A stretch of 59,682 nt of DNA from Promethearchaeota archaeon (GTDB lineage: Archaea > Asgardarchaeota > Lokiarchaeia > Sigyniarchaeales > SOKP01), in contig DAOUVJ010000003.1 of the NCBI GenBank assembly GCA_030667705.1, positions 1 through 59,682 of the forward strand, read 5' to 3'. Of the stretch, positions 17,444 through 54,556 are shown piece by piece. The first letter of the stretch is position 1. Every line of letters begins with the position of its first letter. Position numbers and translations under genes: made by a program. The notes beneath the pieces are model-generated. The model was not told where the DNA came from, did no database searches, and saw only the letters and a program-made list of their open reading frames with translations.

Positions 17444-17971
17444 GTGTCTAATTATGATTTTACATTTAAGGTTCTTTTGTTAGGGGATGCTAGCGTCGGT
17501 AAGACCAGTTTTACCAAGAGATACTGCTATAATATCTTCAATCCTTCTGAAAGGTTGACAATCGGGGTAGATTTTCATGTAAAAACAATTGATTTACACG
17601 GAAGGAAAATAAAACTCCAAATCTGGGATATTGGAGGTGAAGAACGATTTAGGTTCCTACTTCCAACATATTGTCTCGGAGCAAATGCTGCTTTTTTGTT
17701 ATATGACATTACTCGCCCACAAACTCTAGATAATATAAGCGAATGGACAAATATTGTCCGTCAAAAGGGAGGACCCGTTCCAATCATGTTAATTGGCTCG
17801 AAAATAGATCTTGAACCGTCTCAAAGAAACATACCTCGAGAATATGGAATTCAAATTGCTGAAAAACACAGCATGAATTCCTTTGGTGAAATTTCCAGTA
17901 AAACGGGACAAAATGTAACAAAAACTTTTGAAGTTCTCACTGAACTTACATTAGAAATGATGGAAAAATAG
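17444..17971 (+). CDS. Ras/Rab-like small GTPase
   Basis: GDASVGKTS (G1), WDIGGEE (G3), GSKIDL (G4), SSK (G5); no C-terminal prenylation Cys. Confidence 0.93.
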   Translation: MSNYDFTFKVLLLGDASVGKTSFTKRYCYNIFNPSERLTIGVDFHVKTIDLHGRKIKLQIWDIGGEERFRFLLPTYCLGANAAFLLYDITRPQTLDNISEWTNIVRQKGGPVPIMLIGSKIDLEPSQRNIPREYGIQIAEKHSMNSFGEISSKTGQNVTKTFEVLTELTLEMMEK

Positions 17972-37556: not shown

Positions 37557-39002
37557 TTAGTTTATTTCAAGTATCTTTTTTACCAATTCTTTCTTATCAT
37601 CTAAATTTGATTGTCGAGAAATCATTATTCTCTGTGCTTGTGGACTTCCTGCTCCGTGAAGGGATTCGGTTCTATAACTGACAGAGGCAACTCCCATGGT
37701 TAAATTTTCAATGAAGCGAAGCACTTTATATCGATCTTCAGCATTTGTTCCTTCACAAGTCGTTAAATACTTTTCAATTAAAGAGCCTATCTCTTTTGAT
37801 TTAAGATCTGCCTCAGAAGGCATGGTACATATCATCCCTCCCGCAATATCTTCAGCTAATCTTCCTATCTCATATGGAAAGCGAGTGACATTTAGTTTAC
37901 AAACATTAGCCAATAACATGTCCATTTCATAATTCCCTGATTCTCTTTGAAATCCTAATGAACTACAAGCAACACCACAACTATATAATGTTTCATTAAG
38001 ATGAGTCATCTCAACTAGCTTATCTTTCACATGTGATGCTTTTTCCGTTCCATTATATTCAGAAATTAATGCTGTTGCACCTATCAACACATCTCCTACC
38101 CCAACTTTACATCCTCCATAAGATTGTCGATGAAAACCAGCAAATCGGTTGACTAATTCTCCGGAAAAATCAATTTCGCCGTTCATGAAAATATTTTCCT
38201 TAGGTACAAACACATCATCAAATACAACGAAAATTTCTTGACCACCGTACTTAAAATTTCCAATATCTAACTTACCCTGTTCCATTTTTCGGGTATCACA
38301 AGATTGCCTTCAATAAATCATTGTAATTCCTTTTGTGTTTGTGTCTATTCCAAAACTTACGGCATAATCTTCCTCTCCTTTTCTTAAAGAAAGTGTTGGC
38401 ATGATTATAGCTCGATGCGAGTTTAAAAATCCAGTTTGGTGAACTTTAGCTCCTCGAACAATGATTCCATCCTCGTTTGAATCTATGACATGTAAATATG
38501 CATCGGGATCTGGTTGATCTTTCGGTCTTTTACTCCTATCACCTTTTGTATCTGTCATTGCTCCATCAACCATGAGGTCTTGATTTTGGACTTCAATCCA
38601 ATAATTTTTAAATCGGGAATGGTAATCTGTACCATATTTCTTGTCAATTTCATGAGTCACACTATATAACGCATTAGCAGTATCAAACCCTACACATCGC
38701 ATGAAGCAGCAGGCAGTTTTTTGTCCTAATAATCGTTGCATTTTAACTTTATTAATCAGATCTTCAACCGATTGATGGATATGGGTAAATCGATTGATTA
38801 TTTCTCCAGTTAAATGAGATTTTGTCGTCATTAAATCCTTATACTCGTCCATCTGGGCTAATTCATAAATCTTCATGACCGTGTTTATCGAAGGTTTAAT
38901 GATTGGATGATTATAAAATTCTTGGACTTTCTCGCCAAACATATATAGATTAACTGGGCGTTTTATACTTTTTAAGTACTCTTCTGGAGTTTTTAACGGC
39001 AT
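37557..39002 (-). pseudogene. abfD: 4-hydroxybutyryl-CoA dehydratase interrupted by one in-frame TGA (38310-38312)
   Basis: Two ORFs in the same frame: ...TKGITMIY*RQSCDTRKMEQGKLDIGN...; ligand motifs CFMRC and HRQSYGGC; ESLHGAGSPQ. Confidence 0.88.
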
Positions 39003-40083: not shown

Positions 40084-41301
40084 TTATTTACCCCACATTC
40101 GAACCATTTCTCTTGTAATGAGATATCTCATGATTTCTGATGTACCTGCTGATATTTGTCCAATTTTTGAATCTCTATAATATCGTTCTAAGGGGTATTC
40201 TTCTGAATATCCCAAACCACCAACAACTTGAATCGCTTCTTGCGTGATTCGTACAGTAGCGTCTGCTATTCGAGCTTTAACAGCAGCAACGGAAGCTCTA
40301 CAGTTATGTCCCTCATCAAGCATTCTAGCGATTTGAGCTATTGCCATTCTATTAAGCTCTGTATCCATAAACATTTCGCTAAGTTTAAAAGAGATACCTT
40401 CAAAGGAATAAAGAGGTTTCTTGAATTGGACGCGTTTATGAGCGTACTTGTAAGCAATTTCAAAAGCACTTCGAGCAAGACCAAGGTATTGAGAAGCGGT
40501 AAATGTTCTCTCACCATCAAGACCGAATAACAAAACATCCAAACCTTCGTTCTCTTTATGAAGTATATTTTCAGCTGGCACTTTACAGTCTACAAATCGA
40601 AGATGAGAATTGGGCATCCCTCTACGTCCCATATGCTTATATTCCTTAATAACTTCAAATCCCGGAGTATCAGTTTCGAAAATAAATGCCGAAATCCCTT
40701 GATGTGCTTTCACTTGATCGTTTGTTTTAGTGTATAAACAAATATAATCAGCAACGCTACCATTTGTTATGAAGCATTTTTCTCCATTAAGAACATAGTG
40801 ATCACCTTCTCTCACTGCCTTTAATCTCATACCACCTATCGCATCCGACCCTCCTGTAGGTTCAGTGATGCCTATAGCACCTAATTTTGACCCATCAGCT
40901 ATACCTGATAAGTATTTCATTTTCTGGTCTTGAGTTCCAAACTCTATTACTGGACCAGCAAAAAGGCATGATGAAGCTCCAAAGATACCTGCTAAGGCAT
41001 AACTAAAAGCAGTTAATTCTTCCCCTAAAATCGTGCGATAAAGAACCCCTTTACCTTGACCTCCGGCTTCTTTTGGAATGGTCATATCAAGATAAGGCAT
41101 TTTCTTTAAAATCTCTACCGCTAATTTAATATCCCTATTTCTATCTATCTGTTCTGCATCTGGAGCTACGTGTATTTCACACCATTCACGAACTTCCATT
41201 CTAAAATCGTTTTCTTCTTTAGAATAATAACGTAACCGGTTTGGCATACAAGTATATCCAAACTTTAATTCCAAGTCTTCAAAATTTATATGTCCCGACA
41301 T
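40084..41301 (-). CDS. Acyl-CoA dehydrogenase
   Basis: AIGITEPTGGSDA, CFITNG, VVGGLGYSEEYPLERYYRDSKI. Confidence 0.94.
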   Translation of the reverse strand: MSGHINFEDLELKFGYTCMPNRLRYYSKEENDFRMEVREWCEIHVAPDAEQIDRNRDIKLAVEILKKMPYLDMTIPKEAGGQGKGVLYRTILGEELTAFSYALAGIFGASSCLFAGPVIEFGTQDQKMKYLSGIADGSKLGAIGITEPTGGSDAIGGMRLKAVREGDHYVLNGEKCFITNGSVADYICLYTKTNDQVKAHQGISAFIFETDTPGFEVIKEYKHMGRRGMPNSHLRFVDCKVPAENILHKENEGLDVLLFGLDGERTFTASQYLGLARSAFEIAYKYAHKRVQFKKPLYSFEGISFKLSEMFMDTELNRMAIAQIARMLDEGHNCRASVAAVKARIADATVRITQEAIQVVGGLGYSEEYPLERYYRDSKIGQISAGTSEIMRYLITREMVRMWGK

Positions 41302-42593: not shown

Positions 42594-43430
42594 TTATTTA
42601 TCCATATAAACGGTCCATTCTGGTTTTAATATGAAATATTGATCAATTGCATCTTTCATGGTTTTTCGACAAACTTGGATTTCTCTGAGGGTAGGTGGTT
42701 CAACTTCTTTCACTTCCTTAGCAACTATTAGATCCCAATCAGTCTTTTCTTTTACCTGTTCTATTGTCACATTTGGGTGTAGAGCGTCTAAATACGCTTC
42801 TTTTGTAATGGAATCAAATCGCATTATGCAAAGAGGTGAAATAATGGCTTCTGGACCGGTATCAGGAGGATATCCTGCTTTAACTCGACTATCATAACCT
42901 TCTAGATATCCTGGATCAGTGATAAAATCCAATTTTTTAACAAATCTGCGTTTTGAATGATCATCTACAAGATAAATCACTCTTTTTGATAAACCTGCGA
43001 TTTCTGTAGCTCCACCACCTCCTGGTAATCGATAAATTGGCTTTTGATAAGGTCCAATTACAGTAGTATTGCAGTTTCCATATATATCAATACTAGAAGT
43101 ACTTAATAGTGCCAGAGTGATTTCACCTCGTTGAAGAACTGATAATGCATCTATAGAATCTCCGATAAACAATGAATTGGGAATTAAAACAGGATCACTA
43201 ATTGAATATGGCATCTTAATTGGTTTTGGAAGCTCATCTTGTGTCAAACCAACTTCTAAAACCGTGAATAGATTGGGTGCATGAAGCAGTTTTGCCATGT
43301 GAACCGCAAGAAAGGGCCAATGAAAAGCGTTAAATACGAGATCATCATCCTTAATTTGTCTACATGCTGAGACTAACATCATTTCAAAATCAGTGTATTC
43401 TTCACAAAATTCTTTTTTATTAATAACCAT
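42594..43430 (-). CDS. CoA-transferase beta subunit (GctB/IpdB-like)
   Basis: TVLEVGLTQDELPKP, RLPGGGGATEIA; overlaps the alpha subunit by 11 bp. Confidence 0.82.
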   Translation of the reverse strand: MVINKKEFCEEYTDFEMMLVSACRQIKDDDLVFNAFHWPFLAVHMAKLLHAPNLFTVLEVGLTQDELPKPIKMPYSISDPVLIPNSLFIGDSIDALSVLQRGEITLALLSTSSIDIYGNCNTTVIGPYQKPIYRLPGGGGATEIAGLSKRVIYLVDDHSKRRFVKKLDFITDPGYLEGYDSRVKAGYPPDTGPEAIISPLCIMRFDSITKEAYLDALHPNVTIEQVKEKTDWDLIVAKEVKEVEPPTLREIQVCRKTMKDAIDQYFILKPEWTVYMDK

Positions 43431-44325
43431 AGTTAACTGCTCCTTGGATAATGTTTTTCGCTTTCAATTTTTTTATATTATCATTTCCGAGTACTTTCAA
43501 ATATTCTTGTCGATTATTTACACCTGTAACCCATTTTTCAAGCCAATTCTCCCAGTCTTCGATTGTTTTTGTATCTTTTGAGTAATCAAATCTATATGCT
43601 AAATCTTGATAATAATGACCCTGCATATAACCAGGATGTGCACCCCAAGGTTCATGTATAACGGCATCCACTTTATTAGCTGTTACTATTGTTCGTTCGG
43701 GAGACTCCATAATAACTTTTTTATCAACGATTTCCTCGGCAGCTACAATTACTTTTTTACATGAATTAATTCCAAATTTAGTGTCTCCAATTAAACCCCA
43801 CATTTGAGCATTGCCATCTCTATCCGCTCGCTGTACTTGGATAAAACCGACATCAGGTGTTATAGCTGGTACAACACAAATCTCTTCTCCTGTAAATGGG
43901 CATTTTACCTTCGCTGCTTTTAAACCAACATTTTTTGGGTGATCATAGATATTAGTGCCTACAATTGAACGAAGTGGCATAAATGGAACTCCCATGTAGC
44001 CCGCGAAAAATGACATGTTAATCATGAAGAGAGATTGTTCATTATAGATGATCTTTTGAGGTATCCCTTTTTCCATAGCACGTTTAAGATTCCAAGCTGG
44101 TTGTGGACCGGTTGGATTCCAGCAATGAGAAGTTATTATATGGTCCGTAACTCCTGCTCCTATTAATTGGTCAAAGAGGAGCCCCCCGCTGCATTTACAT
44201 ATTTTTAAATTCTGTAAATTTTGTCTAATTATTTCATGAGCTGCAGAGAATGTAATTCCATTTCCAAATCCTCCTAAAAATACTAAATTTCCATCTTGAA
44301 CATGCTTTTTAACTGCTTCTTCCAT
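43420..44325 (-). CDS. CoA-transferase alpha subunit (GctA/IpdA-like)
   Basis: VFLGGFGNGITFSAAHEIIRQ, GDTKFGINSCKKVIVAAEEIV. Confidence 0.85.
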   Translation of the reverse strand: MEEAVKKHVQDGNLVFLGGFGNGITFSAAHEIIRQNLQNLKICKCSGGLLFDQLIGAGVTDHIITSHCWNPTGPQPAWNLKRAMEKGIPQKIIYNEQSLFMINMSFFAGYMGVPFMPLRSIVGTNIYDHPKNVGLKAAKVKCPFTGEEICVVPAITPDVGFIQVQRADRDGNAQMWGLIGDTKFGINSCKKVIVAAEEIVDKKVIMESPERTIVTANKVDAVIHEPWGAHPGYMQGHYYQDLAYRFDYSKDTKTIEDWENWLEKWVTGVNNRQEYLKVLGNDNIKKLKAKNIIQGAVNYGY

Positions 44326-46860: not shown

Positions 46861-48522
46861 TTAATTCTTAGTATATTGACCTCCATATTCTATTCTTATC
46901 CGTTTTTTATCGAGTTTCCCTACGCTTGTTCTAGGGATTTTATCAACAAATATTATAGCATCAGGTATTTGCCACTTCGCAAATGATTTCGCAAGGTGTT
47001 TACGTATTTCTTCTTTAGATGTAAGTTTATTTTCTTCACGCAAAACTACCAAAGCTAAAGGTCGTTCATCCCATTTGGGGTGAAAAATTCCAACAACAGC
47101 TGCTTCAAGAATATTAGAATGTGACATTAAAGAATTTTCCATATCTATTGAACTAATCCATTCCCCGCCACTTTTAATTACATCTTTTATTCTATCAGTT
47201 ATTTTAAGATATCCTTCAGAATCAAGACATCCTGCGTCACCTGTCTTAAAATAACCTCTCTCTGTGAAACTATCTACAGTTTGTGGTGCATTGAAATAAT
47301 TTTCTGTTATCCAAGGCCCTTTTAATAGAATCTCACCAGACGATTTTCCATCGTGAGGGAGTTCTTTTCCATTTTTATCTACAATCTTAATCTCTAATCC
47401 TGAAACAATAATACCTTGCTTTTTCTTTAGATTCCAGAGTTCTTCTTCAGATAATTCTGTTTCAAGCCACGGTTTAAAAATGTTTAATGTTGTAATTGCC
47501 ATTGCTTCTGTAGAACCATAAGAATGAATTATCTCTGCTCCTGTTTCGTCCCAAAATCCACGCATCAATGCAATTGGGGGTTCTGAACCACCACAAATTA
47601 AACGAGCACCTGTTAGGTCTGGTTTTTGTTCCATCTTTCTAATAAATTCTAGCATTGCCATGAATACTGCTGGAACAGCAGCTGATGCAGTAACTTTCTC
47701 TTGAACAAAGATATTTGTAAGTTCTTCAAGATCGTTTAAATTCCATTTGCCGGAGAAAATTAATTTTGCGCCTACATAAGTTGCAGCCTGAGGTTTAGAC
47801 CATCCGAGAACATGGAACATTGGCACTAATTGAAAAATTATATCATTTACACTCATCGAAAAATGAGTTGCAAACATTATCGCTTGTAAATATACATTGC
47901 GATGAGAATAATAAACACCCTTGGGTTTACCCGTAGTTCCTGTCGTATAACAAGCCGCATATGCTGAATTTTCATCTAAATTCAGCCATTCATAATTAGG
48001 TAATGCTTCCATCAAAAGATCTTCATAAGAATATATAGGTTTAAGAATTGTTTCTACTTCGTTAAGAGGTTTGTGTGTGATAATTATATAGCCTAATAAT
48101 CCTTTGCATAAAGGGATAACAGATTCAACCACTTGAATCAGATCTTCGTCAATGATAAGATATTTTATTCCAGAATGATTTATTACATGTGCTAAATCTT
48201 GTGGAGCAAGTCTTAAATTTAAAGACACCATTACGGCACCCATCCCGGGCAATCCAAAATATATCTCAAAATGCTGATAAGTATTCCATGCAATTACACC
48301 TATCCGATCTCCGACTTTAATTCCGATAGATTCTAATGAATTTGCTAATCGTTGCATTCTCTCATAAGCATCTGAATATGTATATCGAAATAGAGTTCCA
48401 TCAAGATTTCTGCTCGCTATTTCCTGTCTGCTATAATTCCTAATAGCATGTTTCATAAGATCTATTACGTTAAGCTGATAATTGCTGTTTGAATTCGCTT
48501 GAAAACCTTTTACAATTTTCAT
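46861..48522 (-). CDS. AMP-dependent acyl-CoA synthetase (medium/long-chain-like)
   Basis: CYTTGTTGKPKGVYYSH, HSYGSTEAMA, GYFKTGDAG, GKLDKKRI. Confidence 0.93.
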   Translation of the reverse strand: MKIVKGFQANSNSNYQLNVIDLMKHAIRNYSRQEIASRNLDGTLFRYTYSDAYERMQRLANSLESIGIKVGDRIGVIAWNTYQHFEIYFGLPGMGAVMVSLNLRLAPQDLAHVINHSGIKYLIIDEDLIQVVESVIPLCKGLLGYIIITHKPLNEVETILKPIYSYEDLLMEALPNYEWLNLDENSAYAACYTTGTTGKPKGVYYSHRNVYLQAIMFATHFSMSVNDIIFQLVPMFHVLGWSKPQAATYVGAKLIFSGKWNLNDLEELTNIFVQEKVTASAAVPAVFMAMLEFIRKMEQKPDLTGARLICGGSEPPIALMRGFWDETGAEIIHSYGSTEAMAITTLNIFKPWLETELSEEELWNLKKKQGIIVSGLEIKIVDKNGKELPHDGKSSGEILLKGPWITENYFNAPQTVDSFTERGYFKTGDAGCLDSEGYLKITDRIKDVIKSGGEWISSIDMENSLMSHSNILEAAVVGIFHPKWDERPLALVVLREENKLTSKEEIRKHLAKSFAKWQIPDAIIFVDKIPRTSVGKLDKKRIRIEYGGQYTKN

Positions 48523-49135: not shown

Positions 49136-49702
49136 TTATTTTTCCTTTGTTTTATTATTGAATATTATTGATGGTTGATATTTATCTTTAAACTCGAAAC
49201 CTATTGCCTCCTTTGAAAATCCGTATTTTTTCTGAAGTTCTTCGATTGGGGCGATATCTAAGGCATACATGGGACACGCTTCTACACAAATAGGATTTTT
49301 TCCCTCGTCTATTCGATCCACACATAGATTGCATTTTTGCATCTTTGCTTCTTTGTGGTTTTCAAATTGTGGGACATCCCATGGACAAACTTTCAAGCAT
49401 TTTGCTCCACATTCCTCATATCCCAAACATTTTTCACTATCCACAATAACAATTCCATCACGTTCTCTTTTTATTATGGCTTTTGTAGGACAAGCGAGTA
49501 AACAAGGAGGGTTCTTGCAATGGTTACATGCGATTGGAAGATAAGATAGGGTGAGATTGGGGAATTTACCTTCCTCGATTTGAGTGATTCTCATCCAATT
49601 AACTGAAGCTGCCGTAATATCGTGCCAATCCTTACACGCAACTGAGCATGTAAAACATCCAATGCATCTAGATTGATCAATGTAAAACCCGATTTGTGTC
49701 AT
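49136..49702 (-). CDS. 4Fe-4S ferredoxin-type electron-transfer subunit of a molybdopterin oxidoreductase
   Basis: CIGCFTCSVACKDWH, CNHCKNPPCLLACPTKAI, CNLCVDRIDEGKNPICVEACPM. Confidence 0.92.
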   Translation of the reverse strand: MTQIGFYIDQSRCIGCFTCSVACKDWHDITAASVNWMRITQIEEGKFPNLTLSYLPIACNHCKNPPCLLACPTKAIIKRERDGIVIVDSEKCLGYEECGAKCLKVCPWDVPQFENHKEAKMQKCNLCVDRIDEGKNPICVEACPMYALDIAPIEELQKKYGFSKEAIGFEFKDKYQPSIIFNNKTKEK

Positions 49703-51987
49703 TTGTTAGCATCCTCCCTTTTTTTTGAGTGTAATTCGACTTGAACCAAAGAACTATTCATTGGAAATGCTCCACCTGGAGAATAACCATCATTTGTTAG
49801 TACATTTGCACATCCACCCCGATCCACACCGTTCTCGGTAGGATTATACCAAGCTCCTTGATAAACACAAATAACCCCCGGCATGATTCTTTCTGTTACT
49901 TTAGCAGGAATTCGAATTCTACCTCTATCGTTGAAAACATCAATGAGGTCTCCATTATTTATCTCCCTTGAAGTTGCATCTACAGTACTAATCCATGCTT
50001 CATGAGCCTCTACTTCTTCCAACCAAGGCATGTTCAAGCTTGAATGAGTCCTCCGTTTATTATGAGGCGTAATAAGTTGTAAAGGATATTTTGATGTTTT
50101 AGGCGAATCATAATTCTCATCGTGAGATAAATATTTTGGTATTGGAGGTATCAATGGATTTTCCATCTCAGCAAGAGCCTCACAATAGATTTCGATTTTA
50201 CCAGATGAGGTGGGGAATTCATATTTTTCTGGATCCTCTACTTGTTTTTTAAAAGCTATGAAAGGTTCGTCGACTTTTACTTTATAATAGCCATCTCTCT
50301 TCATTTTATTAAAATTTTTAATATCTTTACGAGGAGCAGCAAGCATTTTTAGGATTTGTTCTTCTTCCATATCCAATAATCCTCCTTTAATACCTAATCT
50401 TTTTGCTAATTCCTTACTAATCTCTAGATCTGATTTAGATTCGTAAAGAGGCTCAATCGCTTTATTTAGATAAAGATAATAAGGCGAACCTAGCCATGGG
50501 ACGGCTATATCATTTCTTTCCATGAATGTATTCACAGGTAGAACTATATCAGCGAATTTAGCGGTTGGAGTCATGAACTGATCTTGGACGATGACAAAAT
50601 CTAATGCCTTTAAAGCCTTGATTCCCTTATTAAGATTGCCATATTGATTAAGTCTATTACTTGCGACTATATATGCTAATTTAATATCTGCCGGAAAACC
50701 ACCCTCACGGCCTTGTAAAATTGCATCATAATAATCATTGTAATGTATTCTTGTTTTAGCGGGATTCGTACCTCCGCGGAGTTTAAATAAGGTATTTTTT
50801 CGAGGAAGTGCATTAAAATCTACGGGATTATCTTGTGGTCTTAATTTTTTTATTTTAGGTTTTTCGATTTTAGCACCATCGGCATGTTCTTGCTTCTTTT
50901 TGCCTGGTATTATTGTTTCTCTACTATAATATGCTCTCATAAATCCTGAAGCATAACCTCCATTAATTCCAATATTTCCAGTGATTGCTGTAAGAACGGC
51001 AGCTGCACGAGCGAATTGTTCACCAAACATTGTTCTAGCGGGTCCCCAACCTGCAATAAGGGCAGCAGGTTTTTTAGTTGCATATTCCCTCGCTAGATTT
51101 TCAATTAATTTTGAAGGGACATTGGTAATGCTTTCTGCCCATTGAGGTGTCTTTTCCACTCCATCTTCTTTACCCATAACATAAGATTCATACTCATCAA
51201 ACCCAATTGTATATTTTTCAATGAAATCTCTATCAAGAAGATTTTCTTTAATAATTACATACGCCATTGCTATCAACATGGCTGTATCTGTATTAGGACG
51301 GATTGGTATCCATTCACTTGCTAAAACTGCGGCTGAATCCGTAAATATAGGATCAACTGCTACTATCTTGACTCCTTTTTCTCTAGCTTTTGATAATATG
51401 AGAGGTGTTCCGGGATCCCAAATGGTACTTGCTGGATTCCAACCCCACATTATGATGAGTTTAGAGTTTAAAAGATCTTCTCTAGAGTTTCCAGACATGA
51501 TTGTACCATAAGTAGCCATTGAAGCAAATAAAGCACCTTCATATGAAGGAGCACCCCACATTCTGGTATATCCTCCAAATTGGTTTAACATTAAACCCAC
51601 AGAAGTCACTCCATGGAGCATTCCTTGATTTCCAGAACCCGCTACAAAAAGAATAGAGGAGTTATCATATTTCTCTTTAATTAATTTAAGTTTTTCAGCA
51701 ACGGAATCTAACGCTTCTTCCCATGAAATACGTTCAAACTTACCTTCTCCGCGTTCTCCAGTACGGCGCATGGGATACTTAAGTCTATCATCTGAATAGA
51801 CTCGTTGACGGTATGCTCTCCCTCTCAAACATGCTCTTAATTGTGGTTCTTCATCATGATCAGTTTCAAATCTAATTATCCTGCCATTTTTAACATGTGC
51901 TTTTAAAACACAGCGCCCACCACAATCATGGCAACAAGCTGTATTAATAATTTTAGTTTCATTATTATTTATATTCTCTTCAGTCAT
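49699..51987 (-). CDS. Molybdopterin (DMSO reductase-family) oxidoreductase catalytic subunit
   Basis: CHDCGGRC...ACLRGRAYRQRVYSDDRLKYPMRRTGERGEGKFERISWEEALD; overlaps its B subunit by 4 bp. Confidence 0.93.
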   Translation of the reverse strand: MTEENINNNETKIINTACCHDCGGRCVLKAHVKNGRIIRFETDHDEEPQLRACLRGRAYRQRVYSDDRLKYPMRRTGERGEGKFERISWEEALDSVAEKLKLIKEKYDNSSILFVAGSGNQGMLHGVTSVGLMLNQFGGYTRMWGAPSYEGALFASMATYGTIMSGNSREDLLNSKLIIMWGWNPASTIWDPGTPLILSKAREKGVKIVAVDPIFTDSAAVLASEWIPIRPNTDTAMLIAMAYVIIKENLLDRDFIEKYTIGFDEYESYVMGKEDGVEKTPQWAESITNVPSKLIENLAREYATKKPAALIAGWGPARTMFGEQFARAAAVLTAITGNIGINGGYASGFMRAYYSRETIIPGKKKQEHADGAKIEKPKIKKLRPQDNPVDFNALPRKNTLFKLRGGTNPAKTRIHYNDYYDAILQGREGGFPADIKLAYIVASNRLNQYGNLNKGIKALKALDFVIVQDQFMTPTAKFADIVLPVNTFMERNDIAVPWLGSPYYLYLNKAIEPLYESKSDLEISKELAKRLGIKGGLLDMEEEQILKMLAAPRKDIKNFNKMKRDGYYKVKVDEPFIAFKKQVEDPEKYEFPTSSGKIEIYCEALAEMENPLIPPIPKYLSHDENYDSPKTSKYPLQLITPHNKRRTHSSLNMPWLEEVEAHEAWISTVDATSREINNGDLIDVFNDRGRIRIPAKVTERIMPGVICVYQGAWYNPTENGVDRGGCANVLTNDGYSPGGAFPMNSSLVQVELHSKKREDANK

Positions 51988-52035: not shown

Positions 52036-52860
52036 TTATCGTCCTTGGAAAACAGGTTTCCTCTTCTCAAAAAATGCTGTTATTCCTTCACTAACATCTT
52101 TAGATTGTGAGTTAATTCCATACCCAAACTGTTCGAATTGAAGCCCAACATTTAATGGCACTTGGGAACCATACTGAACGCATTTCTTAATGACAAACAA
52201 ACTATTTGTAGCCGCATTCCCTAACCAACTAGCTTTCTCGTGAACAGTATCTTCAAATTCCTCTTCAGAAACTAGAAAAGCAACAAATCCAAAATCATTC
52301 ATCTGTTTAGCAGTATAATGCTCACCAAAAAACATCATTTTTTTAACTTGCATCAATCCTAAACTTCTTACTAAGCGTTGGGTTCCACCATTTGCTGGAA
52401 AAATACCTCTATTGACTTCTGGTAATCCAAAAACAGAACGATTAGTAGCTATTACGATATCACAGACTAATACTAACTCCAATCCACCACCTAAGGCGAA
52501 ACCATCAACTGCGGCTATAATTGGTTTGTGAAAAGCTTCTATCAAATTGTAATATTTATGCTTAACATGCATGGCATGGGTTCGATGTCTAGGGTTTTTT
52601 GGATCCATATTTGGAAGTGGAGCTGATGATAAATCTGCACCAGCTGAAAATGCCGGTTTTTTTGTAAAGTCTTTTGTTCCTCTAATGACAACACACCTTA
52701 TATTGTCATTCATTTCCATGGGCTCAAGAGCTTCAGCAATTTCTTTCAATGTATGCGTTTGAAGTGCATTTAATTTATCTGGCCTGTTAATTGAGATTAC
52801 AGCGTAATTCCCATCTTCTCTCATTTCTACTTTTAAATGTTCAAATTCTTTTCCATTCAT
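52036..52860 (-). CDS. Enoyl-CoA hydratase
   Basis: FSAGADLSSA, DGFALGGGLELVLVCDIVIA, FGLPEVNRGIFPANGGTQRL. Confidence 0.93.
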   Translation of the reverse strand: MNGKEFEHLKVEMREDGNYAVISINRPDKLNALQTHTLKEIAEALEPMEMNDNIRCVVIRGTKDFTKKPAFSAGADLSSAPLPNMDPKNPRHRTHAMHVKHKYYNLIEAFHKPIIAAVDGFALGGGLELVLVCDIVIATNRSVFGLPEVNRGIFPANGGTQRLVRSLGLMQVKKMMFFGEHYTAKQMNDFGFVAFLVSEEEFEDTVHEKASWLGNAATNSLFVIKKCVQYGSQVPLNVGLQFEQFGYGINSQSKDVSEGITAFFEKRKPVFQGR

Positions 52861-53077: not shown

Positions 53078-54556
53078 ATGTTGAGAACAAAAGAAGAATA
53101 TATGAAAGCCTTAAGCAAAATGAAAAAAAATATCTATTTTGATGGGGAAAAAATTGATCGTTTGGATGAACGGCAAATACCATGCATCAATACAATTGGA
53201 ACTACATATGATTTGGCTGAAGATCCGGAATATAAGGATTTAATGCTTGTAAAATCTCATCTTAGTGGTGAAATTATAAATAGATTTACACATATTCATC
53301 AAAGTACTGAAGATCTTCATAAAAAGCAAGATATGACACGAAAACTCTGTCAGAAAGTTGGTGGATGTATTCAACGCTGTATGGGTTGTGATGCAGCAAA
53401 TGCAATCTATAATGTGAGCTATGAAGCGGATAAAGTAAATAAAGGAGAAACTAATTATCACGAGAACTTTAAAAAATGGTTGGAACGGTTTCAGAAGGAA
53501 GATTTAATTGCAGCTTGTGCTCAAACCGATGTTAAAGGTGATCGGATAAAACGTCCCGCAGATCAAGCTGATCCAGATATGTATGTTCATGTTGTAGAAA
53601 AAAGAAATGATGGTATTATAGTTCGCGGATGTAAGGTTCACATTTCTGAAGCTTCAGTTTCTGATGAAATATTAGTTGTTCCTACAAGGGCTTTAAGAGA
53701 AGTAGATAAAGACTATGCAGTTGCATTTGCTGTACCTGCAGATCATGAGAGGGTTATACAATCAGTTACCATTCATAATCTTCGAAAGAGGGAAAAATTT
53801 GAACGTGGATTCATGGGCGGCGCTACAGATTCATATATCATTTTTGATGATGTATTTGTTCCATGGGAACGAGTCTTTTTATGTGGCGAATATCAACATG
53901 GTGGCGTTCTTGCCTTATTATTTGGTCTATTTCATCGTCATAGTTATTCCGGGTGTAAGCCTGCCATCGGAGATTTAACTGTAGGTACAGCCGCTTTAGC
54001 AGCAGAATATAATAATATTCAGAGAGCCTCTCATGTAAGGGGTAAATTAGCTGAATTAATCATGATTACAGAACTGGGCTATGCTGCGGGATATACTGCA
54101 TCTGATCTCGGTAAACCTGAAGTATACATGCCTGGTATAGGCTTTATACCCTATGGCCCTGGAAGCTATATTCCAAATTCAATTTATTGTAATGTAGGAA
54201 GATGTTTAACTGGAGAAAGTGTATATCGAGAAGCAGAAATAATATGTGATCTCTCAGGTGGAATGCCAGCAACGTTCCCTCATGAAAAAGACTTCTTAAA
54301 TCCAGATCTTAAGGATCATCTTTATAAATACATAACTAGAAATCAAAAGATCGCACCTGAAAATGCAGCACAATTCTGGAGATATGTTGGAGATGTGCTT
54401 TGTTCCGCATCAGGAGGGATTGGTCAAGTTGGAGGTTATCATGGCGGAGGTTCCCCCGTAATGGAGCAAATCGCTATTACATCTCAATATGATATAGAAT
54501 TCAGAAAAAAATTGATAAAAGATATTGCTGGAATTAATGATGGATTGAATAAATAA
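53078..54556 (+). CDS. 4-hydroxybutyryl-CoA dehydratase-family protein (divergent paralog 2)
   Basis: CIQRC, HRHSYSGCK, TDVKGDRIKRP, HGGGSP motifs. Confidence 0.88.
   Translation: MLRTKEEYMKALSKMKKNIYFDGEKIDRLDERQIPCINTIGTTYDLAEDPEYKDLMLVKSHLSGEIINRFTHIHQSTEDLHKKQDMTRKLCQKVGGCIQRCMGCDAANAIYNVSYEADKVNKGETNYHENFKKWLERFQKEDLIAACAQTDVKGDRIKRPADQADPDMYVHVVEKRNDGIIVRGCKVHISEASVSDEILVVPTRALREVDKDYAVAFAVPADHERVIQSVTIHNLRKREKFERGFMGGATDSYIIFDDVFVPWERVFLCGEYQHGGVLALLFGLFHRHSYSGCKPAIGDLTVGTAALAAEYNNIQRASHVRGKLAELIMITELGYAAGYTASDLGKPEVYMPGIGFIPYGPGSYIPNSIYCNVGRCLTGESVYREAEIICDLSGGMPATFPHEKDFLNPDLKDHLYKYITRNQKIAPENAAQFWRYVGDVLCSASGGIGQVGGYHGGGSPVMEQIAITSQYDIEFRKKLIKDIAGINDGLNK

Follow-up and report, generated by a model that had tools for sequence, protein, structure and literature searches.

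A 4-hydroxybutyryl-CoA dehydratase-like gene of a Lokiarchaeon belongs to an apparently uncharacterised branch with altered active-site residues

4-Hydroxybutyryl-CoA dehydratase (4HBD) is treated as a key enzyme of the dicarboxylate/4-hydroxybutyrate (DC/HB) and 3-hydroxypropionate/4-hydroxybutyrate CO2-fixation cycles. For the Clostridium aminobutyricum enzyme, AbfD, Zhang et al. (2015) are reported to have proposed that Glu455 deprotonates Tyr296 and that Glu257 protonates FAD via Thr190; in the same mutant work hydratase activity was reportedly not measurable for E257Q, E455Q and Y296W and fell below 1% for Y296F/T190V. We take the catalytic residues of that scheme to be Y296, E257, T190 and E455, of which the sequences described here, named for a C-terminal HGGGSP in place of the canonical HGAGSP, lose only E455. 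For AbfD, PMC13101534 summarizes a proposed mechanism in which one electron passes internally to FAD and an allylic ketyl radical arises; we set that paper, on benzene activation, aside, since 4HBD serves there only as a mechanistic analogy. PMC3949148 reports three 4hcd homologs in A. fulgidus (AF0333, AF0885 and AF1027) and five in D. alkenivorans, and suggests a role in alkene degradation. Our search of the open-licence literature found no paper that separates or assays the HGGGSP subfamily, and no functional description of it.

We analyzed a stretch of 59,682 nucleotides from a Promethearchaeota archaeon (the window), in which one gene had been predicted from the sequence to encode a divergent 4HBD-like enzyme acting on another acyl-CoA.

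Cluster ligands and altered residues of P0001

This gene, P0001 (orthogroup A), occupies 53078–54556 on the plus strand as an open reading frame whose 492-residue translation contains both domains of the HpaB/4HBD superfamily above their gathering scores (PF11794, 304 bits against a cut-off of 35; PF03241, 173 bits against 25). AbfD (1U8V) and P0001 match with E=1.6e-104 (phmmer), which, together with the identical residues fixed in 140 relatives, excludes chance similarity. The AlphaFold2 model of P0001 (mean pLDDT 92.4, pTM 0.91) agrees with the predicted kinship, as Foldseek placed 1u8v first (TM 0.91, 38% identity), 6vjr, the Nitrosopumilus maritimus 4HBD, next (TM 0.90), and HpaB-type monooxygenases after these. 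The source is a Lokiarchaeon-like Asgard archaeon: the nearest named relatives of the 4HBD-family genes in the window are Lokiarchaeota MAGs, and a Ras-like GTPase, read from the sequence, is encoded at 17444.

Residues are numbered after AbfD (1U8V), mapped through the alignment, with codon positions checked. The original prediction held that the [4Fe-4S] ligands persist in CIQRC and HRHSYSGC together with the adjacent Tyr and Lys, and alignment to 1U8V and the codon check bear this out. CIQRC (53366–53380, plus strand) supplies ligands C97 and C101 (AbfD C99 and C103) along with Q99 (AbfD Q101), while HRHSYSGCK (53933–53959, plus strand) supplies H286 and C293 (AbfD H292 and C299), retains Y290 and K294 (AbfD Y296 and K300), and has H288 in place of AbfD Gln294. 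The predicted change of the C-terminal motif is equally real: ESMHGAGSPQ becomes GGYHGGGSPV within GGYHGGGSPVME (54431–54466, plus strand), where G452 stands for AbfD E455, G457 for A460, M462 for A465 and E463 for Q466. Linked to the changes at 455 and 460 are M149Q (Q149 at 53522–53524, plus strand; Met in every canonical enzyme), Q294H, A465M, Q466E, V301P and G302A. The further claim that proton-transfer residues have changed is correct for Glu455, but Ala460 is not a proton-transfer residue, and Thr190 and Glu257 are conservatively kept as Ser (Ser190) and Asp251 (53828–53830, plus strand); the latter position is Glu in 72 and Asp in 68 HGGGSP-type sequences and Glu in 65 of 65 canonical ones.

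Pfam and NCBI names would make P0001 an HpaB-type flavin monooxygenase, a reading drawn from its PF11794, PF03241 and TIGR02309 matches. The TIGR02309 score, however, is 139.4 bits against an equivalog cut-off of 480.2, none of the four cluster ligands is present in HpaB (2YYG), and the lineages bearing HGGGSP-type genes are largely anaerobes. The intact ligands and the matches to 1U8V and 6VJR refute this reading in practice, and we regard it as scarcely tenable.

The HGGGSP branch and its lokiarchaeal members

Relatives were drawn from named genomes, from Lokiarchaea and other Asgard lineages, and from the Archaeoglobi phylum, Clostridia-type genomes and Desulfobacterota. The resulting alignment (n = 211) contains 65 canonical sequences (HGAGSP), among them AbfD of C. 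aminobutyricum and the N. maritimus 4HBD, and 140 HGGGSP sequences with HRH at the ligand; the latter span Lokiarchaea, Archaeoglobi, Desulfobacterota, Clostridia, Spirochaetes and others. Two differences are part of the definition of the groups, namely Ala in 65/65 canonical versus Gly in 140/140 HGGGSP-type sequences at position 460, and Gln in 63/65 versus His (as HRH) in 140/140 at position 294. The changes at 149, 455, 465 and 466 lie outside that definition. Position 455 is Glu in every canonical sequence (65/65) and Ala or Gly in every HGGGSP-type one (140/140); Met149 (65/65) is replaced by Gln (136/140), a mostly Ala position 465 by Met (136/140), and Gln466 (65/65) by Glu (136/140). 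Both groups keep the cluster ligands, Tyr296 and Lys300 essentially without exception, and among the 140 HGGGSP-type sequences Thr190 is T/S and Glu257 E/D. Because the exchanges at 455 and 460 are fixed in 140 relatives, the substitutions in P0001 are not local drift. Several variants were seen alongside. Three sequences (L089, L090 and L093) have HGGGSP, but carry YRAAIGGC or YRACIGGC at the ligand-His motif and probably have no normal cluster site. Four canonical-type sequences (6VJR, L071, L030 and L031) are one residue shorter immediately ahead of ligand Cys299 (SY-xCK), a deletion that may relate to oxygen tolerance, 6VJR being described as an oxygen-tolerant enzyme.

In a maximum-likelihood tree of 60 diverse sequences, computed after removal of the diagnostic columns, the canonical and HGGGSP groups separate at 100/100. 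AbfD and 6VJR lie on the canonical side, and neither P0001 nor its paralog P0002 falls within the clade of characterized enzymes. The original prediction of a distinct subfamily is thereby upheld, and neither of the two known 4HBDs in the set (1U8V and 6VJR) carries the Glu/Ala substitutions. The HGGGSP type forms a large, separate branch of the 4HBD family that is apparently uncharacterised. One Asgard lineage (L116 and L124, family f16) combines HRH and HGGGSP with a canonical-like GSPEAQ ending and GAMTD; it is basal on the canonical side of the tree and looks like an intermediate. No Thermoproteota sequences were among the loci fetched. The Sulfolobales 'type 2' 4HBD, Msed_1220, has its activity listed as not determined.

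The tree bears on the simplest alternative, that P0001 is an isozyme still dehydrating 4-hydroxybutyryl-CoA in which the substitutions are tolerated. Its fold and cofactor residues are indeed the same, but this reading is very unlikely: the tree sets P0001 cleanly apart from both known 4HBDs (100/100), Glu455 is constant in 65/65 canonical sequences, and a canonical copy is retained alongside it in the Loki genus.

P0001 itself branches from within the Desulfobacterota sequences (grouping with two bacterial rows at 99/96), to which it is up to 76% identical, and the lokiarchaeal copies of its type form a single clade. Matches at E<=1e-110 occur in 39 of 247 Desulfobacterota genomes. The nesting, combined with the single Loki clade, points to movement of the P0001 type from bacteria to Lokiarchaea. 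P0002 belongs to a second branch, common to Clostridia, Spirochaetes and genomes of the Archaeoglobi phylum. A plasmid search returned only distant relatives, with at most about 38% identity. In the class around Intestinimonas, three of four matches look canonical by score, so the HGGGSP subfamily is presumably rare there. The syntroph-type genomes of Syntrophothermus sp. UBA1445 and Deltaproteobacteria bacterium Zod_Metabat.215 have 12 and 13 4HBD-family matches, respectively, a strong expansion.

Searching all 228 contigs of the genome (3.1 Mb) gave exactly three such 4HBD-family genes, all inside the window. P0002 (18966–20513, minus strand; 515 residues, orthogroup B) is the second of HGGGSP type by ORF, alignment and tree, and had been predicted to share the substitutions of P0001. 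It does so at both named positions (E455 to Ala, A460 to Gly) but not in the rest of the motif, AGIHGGGSPQ, in which Gln464 is retained; Thr190, Glu257 and Tyr296 are kept.

The third paralog, at about 37557–39002 on the minus strand, was identified by genome search and alignment as a canonical 4HBD (ESLHGAGSPQ) with one in-frame TGA near 38307–38309. Selenocysteine at this codon was ruled out, since the relatives read have GGA (Gly) at that site. Against the nearest ortholog dN/dS is 0.07, which also excludes long-standing decay, so the TGA reflects either a recent loss or an assembly error. A TGA flagged in G010 is merely the terminal stop. In the third paralog the residue at the AbfD Gln101 position, invariant elsewhere, is Met. 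Across the Loki genus the P0001-type gene is found together with paralogs B and C, so P0001 has not simply taken the place of the canonical enzyme.

Gene neighborhoods and candidate reactions

The original prediction also placed P0001 in a setting of ligase, acyl-CoA dehydrogenase and crotonase genes. All of these are present on the minus strand of the window: an enoyl-CoA hydratase family gene (52036–52860, PF00378), which is the divergent neighbor of P0001; an AMP-forming acyl-CoA ligase (46861–48522) above the cut-off of the long-chain-fatty-acid--CoA ligase subfamily; and an acyl-CoA dehydrogenase (40084–41301, by family matches) that stands beside the canonical paralog in relatives' loci as well. 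Between them lie a molybdopterin oxidoreductase (DmsA/YnfE-like by family match, under the curated cut-off) with a ferredoxin-type subunit read from the sequence (49136–51987), and a CoA-transferase subunit pair (42594–44325; PF01144 twice, no NCBIfam name). No membrane anchor gene is evident alongside the oxidoreductase. P0001 precedes carAB both in the window and in L126, the closest relative sharing the locus; the block between the acyl-CoA dehydrogenase gene and P0001 (41515–52860) is absent from L126, however, and the local ligase, Mo-oxidoreductase and crotonase thus need not be partners of P0001. The predicted setting is accordingly weak within the window, but a role in acyl-CoA catabolism is supported by neighbors in other phyla.

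We compared genes within two genes of HGGGSP-type members with genes at least five genes away in the same 52 loci outside Lokiarchaea (L252–L291 and 12 named loci), using Fisher tests in which related loci are treated as independent, so that the p values are too small. Thiolase was found 16 times near and once far (p=2e-5), AMP-forming CoA ligase 13 versus 3 times, 3-hydroxyacyl-CoA dehydrogenase 8 versus 0, and TetR regulators, a label read from the sequence, 9 versus 0. The pooled acyl-CoA gene set gave 46 near and 5 far (p=1e-12). NCBIfam confirms thiolase, ligase, dehydrogenase, FadB-type multienzyme and MaoC-type hydratase as neighbors, and further Clostridia-type loci contain ligase, hotdog hydratases, dehydrogenases, thiolase, BKACE and alpha/beta hydrolases, as labeled by cluster similarity or sequence reading. 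In three Archaeoglobi loci (L035, L278 and L287) a metallo-hydrolase adjoins the HGGGSP gene with a ligase alongside, and L035 also has a 3-hydroxyacyl-CoA dehydrogenase; this is the gene set expected for conversion of a lactone through the 4-hydroxy acid, its CoA ester and the enoyl-CoA into beta-oxidation. The best NCBIfam matches of the metallo-hydrolase are N-acyl-homoserine lactonases, all below cut-off. Two such metallo-hydrolase (lactonase) groups are weakly enriched (8 versus 2, p=0.03), mostly from related Archaeoglobi, and PTE-family or other lactonase-like hydrolases occur near L036, L054 and L064.

Neighbors vary within Lokiarchaea: five genomes carry a B12 acyl-CoA mutase, MeaB and a LarA-like gene, in whole or in part, and in others a sulfatase or glycyl radical enzyme gene is found. 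These differences indicate that no single pathway is fixed there. The mutase (large and small subunits) lies beside P0001 orthologs in L127, L130 and L132, with MeaB and LarA-like genes in some loci, and by eye lacks the usual methylmalonyl-CoA specificity residues.

The beta-oxidation neighbors, together with lactonase-like hydrolases in some loci, make a 4-hydroxyacyl-CoA dehydratase our first choice, with a substrate other than 4-hydroxybutyryl-CoA. We therefore favor, at slightly less than even confidence, P0001 as an FAD/[4Fe-4S] radical enzyme that dehydrates a different, probably larger, 4-hydroxyacyl-CoA. By analogy with AbfD, the acyl-CoA would bind between flavin and cluster, and a flavin semiquinone and a substrate ketyl-type radical would form, as the kept cofactor residues and the AbfD precedent suggest. 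The substituent at the gamma carbon (C4), most likely water, would then be eliminated to give a 2-enoyl-CoA for ordinary beta-oxidation, from a 4-hydroxyacyl-CoA that might be longer, branched or lactone-derived. Since the AbfD relay is kept except for Glu455, and His294 and Glu466 are gained, the radical chemistry has probably been retained and the base moved; the role of Glu455 may have shifted to another residue, His294 and Glu466 having been gained in step with its loss. Against this stands the reported finding of Zhang et al. that Glu455 was essential for hydratase activity in AbfD, so that gamma-dehydration may be gone.

Loss of dehydration is the core of the second-ranked reading, a Delta3-Delta2 (vinylacetyl-type) enoyl-CoA isomerase that only shifts a proton from C2 to C4 for the beta-oxidation of unsaturated acids. 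It would account for the absence of Glu455 from all 140 HGGGSP-type sequences and for neighboring FadB-like multienzymes, thiolase and OYE-type Fe-S flavoenzymes. The literature credits AbfD with an isomerase side activity, and PMC3949148 links the D. alkenivorans and A. fulgidus 4hcd homologs to alkene degradation. Crotonase-type isomerases, however, manage without a costly O2-sensitive cluster, the strict retention of the ligand His and Tyr296 points to a continuing need for radical chemistry, and up to 12–13 family members of several kinds per genome suggest substrate diversity. We consider an isomerase rather unlikely.

A third reading replaces water by another C4 leaving group (amine or carboxylate), or dehydration by some other redox-neutral radical reaction on an acyl-CoA. 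Bacterial members lie near CaiB-like or carnitine-type CoA-transferases and BKACE, some Loki members lie near the B12 acyl-CoA mutase, and BbuA provides a flavin-type C4 elimination of trimethylamine in an enzyme without sequence homology (PMC8364193). The neighbors are inconstant, however, and no recurring amine transporter or ammonia enzyme appeared in the loci read, which leaves this reading quite improbable. A gamma-butyrobetaine (bbu) role, prompted by the CaiB/carnitine-type neighbors in Clostridia, was rejected because BbuA is a non-homologous flavoenzyme and offers an analogy only. We thus rank 4-hydroxyacyl-CoA dehydratase first, isomerase-only second, other C4 elimination third and ordinary isozyme fourth.

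Extending the preferred dehydratase reading, we propose tentatively, as a possible but doubtful generalization, that the HGGGSP type makes up a distinct enzyme class of flavin/[4Fe-4S] radical lyases, in which the catalytic base has been relocated to His294 and/or Glu466. These enzymes would channel gamma-functionalised acyl-CoAs, derived for instance from gamma-lactones or 4-hydroxy acids, into beta-oxidation in anaerobes of both archaea and bacteria, and Lokiarchaea would have acquired them from Desulfobacterota. If the function proposed for P0001 is right, a common step in the anaerobic breakdown of 4-hydroxy or unsaturated acids, shared by syntrophs, sulfate reducers, Archaeoglobi and Lokiarchaea, is hidden under the names 'HpaB' and '4HBD'.

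Comparison with described enzymes

Annotation of the family bears on claims of autotrophy. PMC9802188 scores two Lokiarchaeia MAGs with the full DC/HB gene set, EC 4.2.1.120 listed; in the genome studied here two of the three 4HBD-family genes are divergent and the sole canonical one bears a stop. Positions Glu455, Gln294, Met149 and Gln466 offer a simple residue test to tell the types apart before such claims are made, and the linked residue swap is a natural experiment on AbfD radical formation.

The described systems differ in how closely they resemble P0001. BbuA (gamma-butyrobetainyl-CoA TMA-lyase) is alike in outline, as a flavin enzyme of the acyl-CoA dehydrogenase superfamily that carries out C4 elimination on an acyl-CoA, but is below 10% identical to 4HBD, and the accessible part of PMC8364193 mentions no 4HBD cluster motif. 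HpaB 4-hydroxyphenylacetate 3-monooxygenase has the Pfam family and overall fold in common, but is without the cluster ligands and oxygen-dependent. PMC3949148 reports the A. fulgidus and D. alkenivorans genes only as homologs, and we found no residue analysis or assay of them; at least some are probably of HGGGSP type, since genomes of the same phylum contain HGGGSP-type genes. N. maritimus 4HBD (6VJR) shares with P0001 the fold (TM 0.90) and the cluster ligands, but has the canonical ESMHGAGSPQ and sits in the canonical clade. Measured against 4HBD proper (EC 4.2.1.120), P0001 and P0002 both have the ligands and Tyr296, Glu257 and Thr190 or conservative equivalents, and both lack Glu455 and membership of the clade. 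AbfD is like P0001 in fold (TM 0.91), sequence (about 38–40% identity), the four ligands, Tyr296, Lys300, Thr/Ser190 and Glu/Asp257, whereas the HGGGSP type departs from it in Glu455 to Gly/Ala, Ala460 to Gly, Met149 to Gln, Gln294 to His, Ala465 to Met and Gln466 to Glu, and forms a separate clade.
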